Shown here: piece by piece, positions 53,455 through 58,380 of the stretch
Layout of the letters: each line of letters begins with the position of its first letter
How positions within the stretch are numbered: the first letter of the stretch is position 1
Assembly: GCA_020723385.1 (NCBI GenBank)
Contig: DYIZ01000003.1
Location: 13,009 to 77,008, forward strand
Direction: 5' to 3'
DNA length: 64,000 bases
Origin: Candidatus Aquidulcis sp.
GTDB taxonomy: Bacteria > Chloroflexota > Anaerolineae > Anaerolineales > UBA4823
The notes under the pieces: model-generated
Told to the model about the DNA's origin: nothing
The model's database searches: none
What the model saw: only the letters and a program-made list of their open reading frames with translations
Position numbers and translations under genes: made by a program

Positions 53455-54558
53455 ATGCACTCACGAAATCGCGCTCTATGGCTGATCATTGCTTTGCTGC
53501 CCTTAGCCTGCGCGCTGCCCACGATTGCGACTCCCATCGCGCCGGGAACGGGCGGCGGCAGCGGCGGTCCGGTGTTCGTCTTCGCGCCCGCCAATGCGAC
53601 CCCCACAGCAACGCCTTTTCAGCCATCCGCACCCACGCCCACTTACATTCCCACCAACCAGCCGACGCCCACTGTCTTTATCCCTCCCACGGCGGAACTG
53701 CCAGAAATCGTCGAGCCGGTGGCTAAATCCTGGGATGATTATCCCGGCCCAACCGTCTGGCCCGACATTGACATTCCTGCGCCAACCGGGATTCTGGCGC
53801 AGCCCGAAGGGCAGGTGACCATCCTGCTGCTCGGCTCCGACCAGCGGCCTTCCGATGGCGGCTTGCGCACCGACACGATTCTGCTGCTGACGCTGAACAC
53901 AAAGGAAGGGACGGTCAATATCACCTCGTTCCCGCGTGATTTGTACGTGTACATCCCTGGCTGGACGGTGCAGCGCATCAACACAGCCTACGGCTTTGGC
54001 GGGTTCGAATCACTGGCGCTGACGCTCGAGTACAATTTTGGGGTTCACCCTGACCATTACGTGATGATCAATTTCAGCTCTTTCAAAGAGGTGATTGACA
54101 GCCTGGGCGGGATCAACGTCAATGTGGCGGCGCCCCTGACCGATCACCGCGACGCCTACGGGGATTACACCGTTCCGGCAGGGATCGTCACCATGGATGG
54201 GGAAACAGCCTTGTGGTACGTACGCGCTCGCTACACCACCAGCGACTTCGACCGCGGGCGGCGGCAGCAAGAAGTGCTGCAAGCAATCTTCGAAAAGCTG
54301 CTCAGCCTGGACGCCATCGAACGCGCTCCCGATTTGTATGATATCTACCGTCAGAACGTGACCACCGACATGACGTTCGACCAAATGGCCGAGCTGGCGC
54401 CCCTGGCGGTGCAGTTGCGCGATACATCGCGCATCCATCATTATTTCATTGGGCCAGAGACTGTGATGAACTGGGTCAACTACAGCGGCGCGCAGGTGCT
54501 GCTGCCCATCCGCGATGCGGTGCTGGAAGTGATGAAACAGGCGTTGAACAGCCCGTAA
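53455..54558 (+). CDS. LytR-CpsA-Psr (LCP) family wall ligase
   Basis: A 367-residue membrane-anchored protein. Signal-type N-terminus, Thr/Pro stalk (about 45-90), LCP catalytic domain about 125-285. Conserved elements: 'TILLLGSDQRPSDGGLRTDT' (Asp of the pyrophosphate site), 'NITSFPRDLYVYIPGW' (Arg-Asp pair), 'INTAYGFGG', and 'GETALWYVRARYTTSDFDRG' with the following Arg pair 'RRQQEVL'. LCP enzymes move undecaprenyl-linked glycopolymers onto peptidoglycan. It follows the LysM gene by about 120 nt on the same strand. The extra C-terminal region (286-367) is common to Chloroflexi-type members. Confidence 0.92.
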   Translation: MHSRNRALWLIIALLPLACALPTIATPIAPGTGGGSGGPVFVFAPANATPTATPFQPSAPTPTYIPTNQPTPTVFIPPTAELPEIVEPVAKSWDDYPGPTVWPDIDIPAPTGILAQPEGQVTILLLGSDQRPSDGGLRTDTILLLTLNTKEGTVNITSFPRDLYVYIPGWTVQRINTAYGFGGFESLALTLEYNFGVHPDHYVMINFSSFKEVIDSLGGINVNVAAPLTDHRDAYGDYTVPAGIVTMDGETALWYVRARYTTSDFDRGRRQQEVLQAIFEKLLSLDAIERAPDLYDIYRQNVTTDMTFDQMAELAPLAVQLRDTSRIHHYFIGPETVMNWVNYSGAQVLLPIRDAVLEVMKQALNSP

Positions 54559-54574
54559 CTCAGGAGGAACGAAG

Positions 54575-54856
54575 ATGCAATGGTCTGAAATACGCAAAAC
54601 CCATCCTGATGAATGGCTTGTTATAGAGGCCATACAAGCCCACACAACACCTACGAATCAGCGTCAATTAGATAGGATCGCGGTTATTGAACAGTGTATT
54701 GATGGCATCAGCGCCATACATAGCTATCGTCGCCTTCACCAACTATACCCTACTCGTGAATTCTATTTTGTGCATACTCATCGAGAAGAACTCGATATTC
54801 GCGAGCAACAATGGTTGGGTATCAGGAGAAGTTATGCAGCTAACATTGAAAGATAA
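54575..54856 (+). CDS. Small partner of the retropepsin-like protease
   Basis: A 93-residue soluble protein. No family recognised with certainty. 'MQWSEIRKTHPDEWLVIEAI' then 'AHTTPTNQRQLDRIAVIEQC', 'LHQLYPTREFYFVHTHREEL', 'DIREQQWLGIRR'. It overlaps the following aspartyl-protease gene by 23 bp. From memory, similarly sized genes precede single-domain retropepsin-like genes in cyanobacteria and Chloroflexi; the function is unknown. AT-richer than the flanking wall genes, so the pair may be transferred together. AGGAGG lies upstream of its ATG. Confidence 0.75.
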   Translation: MQWSEIRKTHPDEWLVIEAIQAHTTPTNQRQLDRIAVIEQCIDGISAIHSYRRLHQLYPTREFYFVHTHREELDIREQQWLGIRRSYAANIER

Positions 54857-55217
54857 CCTCCCTTTCGTGACTGTTGTGGTGACTCATAAAGGGCAAGCTA
54901 TTGAAATAACAAATGTTCTAGTTGATACAGGATCAGGGTCTACAATATTGTCAGCCGATGCAATGCAGGTTATTCAAATCACACCCTCGCCTGAAGATAC
55001 ACTATATATTATCCGTGGTATCGGAGGAAATGAGGTTGTCTACTCACATCGAGTAGAAAACATAAGAATTGGTGAAGGGAATATCAGCAATTTTGAAATC
55101 GAGATCGGGGGTATGGATTATGGCTTTGAGATTAACGGCATTATTGGAATGGATTATCTTGTACAAACGGGAGCGATTATCAATTTGCAGGATACGATAA
55201 TCGAGTTTGCAGGATAA
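54834..55217 (+). CDS. Retropepsin-like aspartic protease (single domain)
   Basis: A 127-residue single-domain aspartic protease like viral retropepsin, which works as a dimer. Active-site Asp31 in 'VLVDTGSGSTILSADAM' (DTG-S). The second-half landmark is 'INGIIGMDYLVQTGAIIN', matching the 'ILG/IIG-MD' loop of cellular retropepsins (SASP/RC1339-type). ATG 54834 has AGGAGA upstream. The longer frame would add sequence from the overlapping gene. No signal peptide, so it should act in the cytoplasm. Substrate unknown; the 93-residue partner is a candidate. Confidence 0.85.
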   Translation: MQLTLKDNLPFVTVVVTHKGQAIEITNVLVDTGSGSTILSADAMQVIQITPSPEDTLYIIRGIGGNEVVYSHRVENIRIGEGNISNFEIEIGGMDYGFEINGIIGMDYLVQTGAIINLQDTIIEFAG

Positions 55218-55242
55218 GCGATATAACATTTTAGGAGGAAAC

Positions 55243-56346
55243 ATGACTATACTGCAAGGCAAAGGCTTTTACACCTGGAAGCTGCCCAACTGCGAGGGCG
55301 GAGACCCCAATGCTTTCGCCGCACAGGCCAAGAGCGCCGGGCTGACGCATGTTCTCATTAAAATCGCCGATGGCGTCACCGTCTATAATGGCAACTGGGG
55401 CGATCCCAAGGACTACGTCACGCCTATCGTCGAGGCGCTCAAAGGGCGCGGTATCCAGGTTTGGGGCTGGCACTATGTTTATGGCAAAGACCCCATCGGC
55501 GAGGCCAACCGCGCCATCCAGCGCGCCCAACAATTGCAGGTGGACGGCTACGCCATTGACGCCGAGAAGGAATACAAGGAACCCGGTAAAGGTGAAGCCG
55601 CCAAGAAATTCATGGCCCAGTTGCGCACGGGCCTGCCCAACCTGCCGGTGGCGCTCAGTTCGTACCGCTTCCCATCCTATCACCCCCAACTGCCGTGGAA
55701 AGAATTTCTCGACAAGTGCGACATCAATATGCCCCAGGTATACTGGATGCAGGCGCATAACGCCGGCGATCAGCTCACTCGCTGCGTGCGCGAATTTCAA
55801 GCAATGACGCCCTACCGCCCGGTCATCCCCACCGGGGCGGCATTCCGCGAGGGCGGCTGGCAGCCCACAGTGAGCGAGGTGATGGATTTTCTCCAGACGG
55901 CGCAAAGTCTCAACCTGAGCGCGGCCAACTTTTGGGAGTGGGGCGATGCCCGCTCGGGAGTGCTTCCCGGTGTGTGGGAAGCCATCAGCGCCTTCCCGTG
56001 GGGCGGGGTCACTCCCCCGCAGGACATCTGCGAAAAATTCATCGCCGCACTCAACACACACGACCCCAACAAAGTCACCGAGTTGTACAATTCCACTGCC
56101 GTTCACGTCACATCAGCCCGCACCATCCAAGGCACCGAAAAGATCCGCACCTGGTACACCAGCCTGCTGACGCAGCTCCTGCCGAATGCCAAGTTCACCC
56201 TCACCGGCTTTTCCGGTACGGGCAGTTCCCGTCACCTGACCTGGACCGCCACCTCGTCCGGCGGGAACGTGCAAAACGGCAACGACACCTTCGGGCTGCT
56301 CAACGATAAAATAGCCTATCATTACGCCTTCTTTACCATAAAATAA
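55243..56346 (+). CDS. TIM-barrel glycoside-hydrolase-like protein with NTF2-like tail
   Basis: A 367-residue protein. Residues about 5-250 form a TIM-barrel similar to GH25-like/DUF1906 folds ('GKGFYTWKLPNCEGGDPNAF', 'LTHVLIKIADGVTVYNGNWG', 'VWGWHYVYGKDPIGEANRAI', 'VDGYAIDAEKEYKEPGKGEA', 'INMPQVYWM'). The DAE-type acidic pair in 'YAIDAEKEY' could be catalytic. Residues about 262-367 resemble an NTF2/SnoaL-like domain ('CEKFIAALNTHDPNKVTELY', 'GTEKIRTWYTSLL'). ATG 55243 has GGAGG upstream. There is no signal peptide, odd for a wall hydrolase. The barrel/NTF2 fusion is uncommon. Confidence 0.75.
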   Translation: MTILQGKGFYTWKLPNCEGGDPNAFAAQAKSAGLTHVLIKIADGVTVYNGNWGDPKDYVTPIVEALKGRGIQVWGWHYVYGKDPIGEANRAIQRAQQLQVDGYAIDAEKEYKEPGKGEAAKKFMAQLRTGLPNLPVALSSYRFPSYHPQLPWKEFLDKCDINMPQVYWMQAHNAGDQLTRCVREFQAMTPYRPVIPTGAAFREGGWQPTVSEVMDFLQTAQSLNLSAANFWEWGDARSGVLPGVWEAISAFPWGGVTPPQDICEKFIAALNTHDPNKVTELYNSTAVHVTSARTIQGTEKIRTWYTSLLTQLLPNAKFTLTGFSGTGSSRHLTWTATSSGGNVQNGNDTFGLLNDKIAYHYAFFTIK

Positions 56347-56358
56347 TACCGAAGTGAG

Positions 56359-56411
56359 CCGGAATTTTGATATTGGTACGTGCTTCGCACGTACCAATAT
56401 CAAAATTCCGG
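56359..56411 (+). terminator. Long-stem terminator
   Basis: Perfect 25-bp stem starting CCGGAATTTTGATATTGG with a TTC triloop, just after the TIM-barrel gene. It is followed by TTTATTCC. Shape matches the stems at 8209, 30002 and 38416. Confidence 0.75.
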
Positions 56412-57669: not shown

Positions 57670-57993
57670 TCATTCCGCGAAGATTTCGGCCAAGATTTCC
57701 AGCGTATGCTTTTGAGTATCGTCATTAATCCGCCCCAATTTCTTCACCAAACGCGCTTTATCCACCGTTCGCAACTGATCCAGCACGATTTGCCCGTCTT
57801 TACCCAGGAAGTGGCACACGACTCGGGTTGGGTAGTCTCGTCCCATTGTTGTCATGGGAGCAATAATGATCGTGGCGATATGCGCGTTCATCTCATCTGG
57901 GGAAATAACCAGACAGGGGCGAGTCTTCTGGATTTCACTGCCAACTGTCAGATCAAGGTTGACGAGGTAAACATCGAATCGTTTGATTACCAT
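57670..57993 (-). CDS. mazF: MazF/PemK-type endoribonuclease toxin
   Basis: A 107-residue CcdB/PemK-fold toxin. It cleaves mRNA at short motifs unless bound by its antitoxin. Landmarks: 'RFDVYLVNLDLTVGSEIQKT', 'RPCLVISPDEMN', 'IIIAPMTTMGRDYPTRV', 'GQIVLDQLRTVDKARLVKK'. The conserved 'RP' and 'DQ-RTVD' residues of active MazF are present. It overlaps the antitoxin gene end, so translation is coupled. ATG 57993 (MVIKRF) is preferred over 57999 by spacing to GAGGAAG. Convergent to the deacetylase gene with only 6 nt between stops. Confidence 0.93.
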   Translation of the reverse strand: MVIKRFDVYLVNLDLTVGSEIQKTRPCLVISPDEMNAHIATIIIAPMTTMGRDYPTRVVCHFLGKDGQIVLDQLRTVDKARLVKKLGRINDDTQKHTLEILAEIFAE

Positions 57994-58247
57994 TCCCATT
58001 CTTCCTCATCCCAGCGACTCGACCTCATCTCTTCTAGCAAACGATCGTCGCCCTGTTGAGCCATTTGCACAAACTTCACTTCCCACCCCTGGCGCGGTTT
58101 TCGAGCGGAATGAATGATCAACCGGTCGCCTTCTAGGGTCATTTCGACCTCGTCAACCAGCCCAGCCTGTTCCAGCAGTGCGCGAGGGATACGGATGCCG
58201 CGCGAATTACCAATCTTGATAATCTTTGAGCGTACAAACGTTTCCAT
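57987..58247 (-). CDS. mazE: MazE/AbrB-type antitoxin
   Basis: An 86-residue antitoxin with an N-terminal AbrB/SpoVT swapped-hairpin DNA-binding domain ('SKIIKIGNSRGIRIPRALLE', 'VEMTLEGDRLIIHS') and an acidic, Trp-rich C-terminus ('WDEEEWEW') likely to block MazF. ATG 58247 is chosen by GAGGAG upstream; the longer frame is rejected. Its stop overlaps the toxin start by 7 bp. Such pairs autorepress; no operator palindrome was noticed. Confidence 0.92.
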   Translation of the reverse strand: METFVRSKIIKIGNSRGIRIPRALLEQAGLVDEVEMTLEGDRLIIHSARKPRQGWEVKFVQMAQQGDDRLLEEMRSSRWDEEEWEW

Positions 58248-58380
58248 AGTCAAACTCCTCTGTAATAAACGTAACCACATTGTAATCACGCGATGAGCGA
58301 AAGTCAAGAGGCTCATCAGGCATGTTTCGGCTGCACTCAACACGCCTGATGACAGACTACGCAATCTGTCTGCAATGGGA

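Follow-up and report, generated by a model that had tools for sequence, protein, structure and literature searches.

The question raised by this locus is what a bacterium gains from a protease gene of the viral type that overlaps a still smaller gene and differs sharply in composition from the genes on either side. The window, the whole 64,000-nt stretch of DNA that was analysed, carries the two genes on the forward strand: gene A (54575..54856, 93 aa, ATG at 54575 and stop at 54856) and gene B (54834..55217, 127 aa, complete from ATG to stop). They share 23 bp (54834..54856, +), and coordinates and frames agree with those given in an earlier, sequence-only reading of the window. Inspection locates a Shine-Dalgarno-like site 4-7 nt upstream of each start: AGGAGG before A (54562..54567, +) and, within A itself, AGGAGA before B (54824..54829, +). 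The AT-richness that first drew attention to the pair is real: its GC content is 41.4% versus 57.1% for the window, a value in the lowest 1.2% of the 643-bp windows within that stretch, and its GC3 is 0.35 versus 0.74 and 0.75 in the flanking genes.

The pair occupies a 684-bp segment (54559..55242, +) that runs from the stop of one gene to the start codon of the next. The upstream gene encodes a LytR-CpsA-Psr (LCP) protein (53455..54558, +; PF03816, 1e-42) and belongs to the host context, outside the module. The downstream gene (55243..56346, +) is conserved: 93 of the 121 genomes compared within the order have an orthologue, and in relatives it follows the LCP gene directly. As for the description of the surroundings as wall genes, the upstream flank is this LCP gene, and the downstream protein has SnoaL_2 as its sole Pfam match and looks glycoside hydrolase-like by inspection. 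In 15 fetched relatives, the LCP orthologue stops about 30-120 nt before the downstream gene, with no pair in between. The closest of these (L283), whose flanking proteins are 70% and 65% identical to those of the window, has a gap of 40 nt. The pair would not fit into such empty sites; what was inserted into a probable LCP operon is therefore a segment of about 0.65 kb containing A and B and little besides. The idea that the two genes were transferred together is thus supported by the empty sites and the low GC3, as well as by the patchy distribution and strict co-occurrence described below. No promoter-like site was found between the LCP gene and A, so the pair is probably read as part of the LCP message. 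Two other features lie nearby. A MazF-like toxin and an AbrB/MazE-like antitoxin, recognised by inspection of the translations, form a pair on the reverse strand 2.5 kb downstream (57670-58364), which is another possible insertion in the region. A long perfect hairpin, GAATTTTGATATTGGTACGTGCTTCGCACGTACCAATATCAAAATTC, occupies the intergenic positions 56362-56408; it is single-copy in the window and may be a terminator or a mobile palindrome.

Gene B carries the catalytic motif DTGS at residues 31-34 (54924..54935, +) and the second retropepsin motif (hydrophobic-hydrophobic-Gly) as IIGMD at residues 103-107 (55140..55154, +). Its Pfam matches lie in clan AA (PF13650, 3e-10; PF13975, 4e-9; PF00077 or RVP, 1.6e-4). 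The predicted structure is that of a retropepsin (pLDDT 94), and the model matches HIV-1 protease (4e-7) and Rickettsia APRc (TM 0.69). Judged by its motifs, profile matches and model, B is a clan AA retropepsin-like aspartic protease, for which proteolysis and homodimerization are predicted; the motifs and the viral-type assignment made from the letters alone are both confirmed. The DTG is kept in 82 of 82 intact B proteins. Inspection reveals no signal peptide-like or membrane stretch in B, and the cytoplasmic location ascribed to it is therefore plausible. The same fold class and DTG motif occur in Rickettsia APRc/RC1339 (PDB 5c9f), in the retropepsin-like protease of the Pseudomonas RimABK pathway and in the secreted osmotic-stress retropepsins of P. 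aeruginosa (PMC4140852, PMC11957791 and PMC12239564). In contrast to these proteins, B consists of little more than the soluble protease domain, is accompanied by a small partner gene of its own and, by inspection, is neither membrane-anchored nor secreted. The retroviral-protease-like domains of Ddi1 are among the nearest relatives of known structure by sequence profile (3e-7), although Ddi1 is eukaryotic, multidomain and ubiquitin-linked.

The small partner falls outside the families of Pfam and NCBIfam, neither a DNA-binding domain nor an antitoxin fold of a known kind was recognised in it, and a comparison of its model with solved structures gave no convincing match. The model is confident for residues 1-70, which are arranged as helix, two long strands, helix and strand, with the core at residues 3-67. 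The C-terminal tail (residues 82-93) is predicted to be disordered. A short motif near the C-terminus, located where the disordered tail begins, is conserved as G-[ILVM]-R in 53 of 82 pairs; in pairs without it, A often carries P-[LM]-[IVM]-R. A DNA-binding or known antitoxin domain is frequent in type II antitoxins without being obligatory. Since none was found here, we do not assign A to any of the known antitoxin types. Two further assignments were discarded: DUF5678, considered as the family of A, received no support from Pfam, and a profile match to SpbK (0.037) is too weak to count.

Both genes are catalogued. A matches the PADLOC profile PDC-M08A (PDLC04400, 4.9e-31) over residues 1-85 and B matches PDC-M08B (PDLC04405, 2.2e-44) over residues 1-124, that is, nearly full length and in the same order. 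By these matches the pair is a member of PDC-M08, a two-gene phage-defence candidate of PADLOC-DB 2.0 and one of many such candidates catalogued without a known mechanism. PMC12988326 traces the PDCs to a bioRxiv preprint of 2024 by Payne and others ('guilt by embedding'), and PMC11811056 attributes them to Payne and others 2021 as candidates that are unpublished. The PADLOC entry gives no mechanism; the toxin-antitoxin-type dependence proposed here comes from the present analysis, and no statement of it was found in the literature searched. What was known already is the pair, as PDC-M08; the evidence for this dependence, in which a retropepsin is the presumed toxin, appears to be new.

The PADLOC label itself implies a dedicated anti-phage system, whether or not B is a toxin. 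We regard this as a real though minority possibility, and one that concerns the purpose of the pair rather than its mechanism, so that it overlaps with the toxin-antitoxin-like reading preferred below. The match of both proteins to the PDC-M08 profiles, the patchy, multi-copy and mobile occurrence of the pair and the presence of some PADLOC-type genes among its neighbours are all consistent with it. However, neighbour counts for 20 pairs, which tally profiles rather than loci, are not clearly higher than those for 20 control regions, in which cas1 was present, and by inspection no recognised defence gene lies directly beside the pair in the window. The literature search, which did not extend to the 2024 source preprint, found no paper naming PDC-M08 and no published test of it. 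Two other PDCs, PDC-M63AB and PDC-S04, showed no defence activity when one study tested them in a native host (PMC12409345).

The distribution of the pair is patchy. Among 400 sampled Chloroflexota genomes, A occurs in 5, and strong B matches (>100 bits) are present only beside A. A single scan of GTDB contigs turned up related sequences in three groups: Thermoflexales, Desulfobacterales and Cohnella. A survey of 300 genomes covered the family to which Cohnella silvisoli belongs, Paenibacillaceae as we take it from the organism name: A is found in 173, hence in over half of the sample, with up to 9 copies, and B in 158. Both genes are present in 156 genomes, A only in 17, B only in 2 and neither in 125 (Fisher 2e-62), and the two B-only genomes both hold B remnants with in-frame stops. 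Co-occurrence elsewhere, whose absence the sequence-only reading had named as grounds for refuting it, is therefore strict, and the idea withstands this check. In every paired case the order is A then B on the same strand. The overlap in 82 intact pairs is 4 nt in 36, 0 nt in 17, 11 nt in 14 and, as in the window, 23 nt in 4. Distances among A and among B copies correlate at 0.94 and no partner swaps are seen; much of this correlation is explained by co-inheritance. Pairs also reside on a plasmid of Alicyclobacillus and on phage-plasmids of C. difficile, of which phiCDIF1296T is an example. Chance neighbours, or a fragment of a decaying retroelement, might be suspected from the AT-rich stretch and the retroviral-type fold, but this survey refutes the idea, to which we give next to no weight: hundreds of conserved pairs were found, the 684-bp insert contains no reverse transcriptase or integrase, and A is under purifying selection elsewhere. 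A viral origin was likewise rejected. Four IMG/VR queries returned no relatives except the C. difficile phage-plasmid type, and comparison of the window proteins with phage records yielded no A and only the distant B of those phage-plasmids.

Gene loss offers a way to separate the explanations that remain. Should B be harmful and A hold it in check, cells would be expected to tolerate the loss of B but not that of A beside an active B. The best 150 A and the best 150 B matches from the same 300 genomes were listed, and the state of the partner was read from the fetched DNA wherever it was unlisted. Among the best 150 A, 145 loci have a whole A and readable downstream DNA, and in 58 of these B is damaged or missing; among the best 150 B, A is damaged or absent beside none of the 133 whole copies (0/133; Fisher 5e-20). 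The lesions in B comprise stops, frameshifts, and internal and end deletions, about 40 different ones in all. Because the sampled genomes and loci are related, such P values overstate independence, and the count of at least 32 state changes of B on a tree of 157 A sequences is the safer figure. The survey covers this one bacterial family plus a few outsiders. The one-way pattern recurs in other phyla, where one genome has a B that lost residues 1-34 including the DTG (G318) and in another a TAG interrupts one B (G372), with A whole in both.

One-way loss excludes chance association and argues against partners that are obligate but harmless. Such partners would be the components of an ordinary regulated protease, with A as adaptor, chaperone or pro-domain and no toxicity involved. 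Strict adjacency, overlaps and joint diversification are what an arrangement of this kind predicts, but it also predicts that each gene is lost roughly as often as its length would suggest: about 40% of the single losses would be expected in A, and 0 of 58 are found there (sign test, P = 2e-13). We consider it improbable. The loss pattern leaves two readings, namely that B is harmful without A or that A is independently useful. According to the second, A would be a useful protein in its own right, for instance a regulator or a defence sensor, and B a dispensable accessory protease that processes or removes it. The many whole-A loci with a damaged or missing B are in keeping with this, as is the low dN/dS (about 0.05-0.25) between surviving orphan copies of A. 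Yet a harmless B should sometimes outlast A, which none of the 133 does, and the 17 A-only genomes contain some 20 A copies, about 9 of them broken. A general independent use of A is therefore disfavoured, and we judge this reading unlikely. The constraint on orphan A could reflect recent loss of B, protection against a B at another locus or some function that A itself performs; no replacement gene was found beside 26 orphan A genes without a B remnant.

Decay of roughly half of the A copies where B is missing, as against none beside a whole B, favours the first reading. We put its probability at roughly 0.58: A and B form a mobile, translationally coupled toxin-antitoxin-like module in which B is a self-harmful protease, the proposed toxin, and A its cognate inhibitor. 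A module of this type had been suggested from the letters alone; the one-way loss now speaks for it over other couplings, and toxicity itself is a property that we infer. The protease-substrate relationship also suggested there met with neither support nor contradiction. Several features point in the same direction as the loss pattern: the strict pairing, the DTG kept by every intact B, an operon in which the antitoxin gene comes first and the short overlaps are typical of coupling (4 nt in 36/82), the joint diversification without partner swaps, the lack of a replacement beside orphan A, and the occurrence on a plasmid and on phage-plasmids. On the other side stand the features of A noted above, with neither a Pfam family nor a recognised DNA-binding domain or antitoxin fold, and the purifying selection on orphan A, which may act without a neighbouring B or counter a B encoded elsewhere.

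The proposed mechanism would begin with the shared message, on which translation of A comes first and that of B is coupled to it. B, presumably an obligate homodimer, would cleave host proteins in its own cell and be harmful when free. A would bind the B monomer or dimer and keep it inactive, possibly touching the B cleft through the conserved C-terminal motif at the edge of its tail. Depletion of A, through gene loss, A turnover or phage attack, would then release B, an outcome that would favour retention of the genes and might make infection abortive. The inhibition by A, the trigger and any anti-phage activity are, like the toxicity of B, what we infer from the loss pattern and the catalogue entry. 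The broader claim, that PDC-M08 is a toxin-antitoxin or abortive-infection system with an HIV-type aspartic protease as toxin and a small inhibitor without a solved relative, and the first retropepsin toxin-antitoxin system, has a chance slightly short of even.

The module resembles type II toxin-antitoxin systems such as MazEF in being a small two-gene operon on one strand with fixed order and short overlaps, in its horizontal spread, many copies and decay, and in that the upstream gene is never lost before the downstream one. It differs in that the presumed toxin is a retropepsin and A has no known antitoxin domain. The pair is thus described as working like a type II module rather than filed as one. 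To our knowledge, no described toxin-antitoxin family has retropepsin activity, and a literature search for such a family found none. The one-way loss makes the mechanism of PDC-M08 specifically testable, since it asks whether B is toxic on its own and whether A relieves the effect. If so, aspartic proteases would join the known toxin activities, and A would be a natural protein inhibitor of the HIV-protease fold. It would also hint at the role of other bacterial retropepsins with a small upstream partner. Such pairs, termed A'-B' here, exist in other Chloroflexota (L020-L023, L025), where a small gene lies directly upstream of the retropepsin gene, often in tandem (for example L020 1236-2615). 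Homology of A to A' is not established, as the two have no significant sequence relation (hhalign probability 20%), and A' matched no family in Pfam or PADLOC. Nature may thus have arrived more than once at a retropepsin preceded by the gene of a small partner.

Several minor observations concern the surroundings and the range of the pair. In one subfamily, 3 of 10 sampled pairs (L243, L244, L251) lie within about 2.5 kb of a tmRNA gene, a known integration hot spot. Across the sampled neighbourhoods (L242-L261), ORFs are shorter than in control regions, and PD-(D/E)XK transposases and DUF6809 each appear five times. The phiCDIF1296T-type pair (L027 4736-5369) is annotated only as a hypothetical protein and a retropepsin-like protease, and PHROGs 21859 and 21241 (81 and 128 positions) resemble the two halves of the C. 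difficile phage-plasmid pair. Cohnella silvisoli itself (L005, L008 and the matches in G403) harbors nine matches to A and seven or eight to B, which range through every stage of decay.
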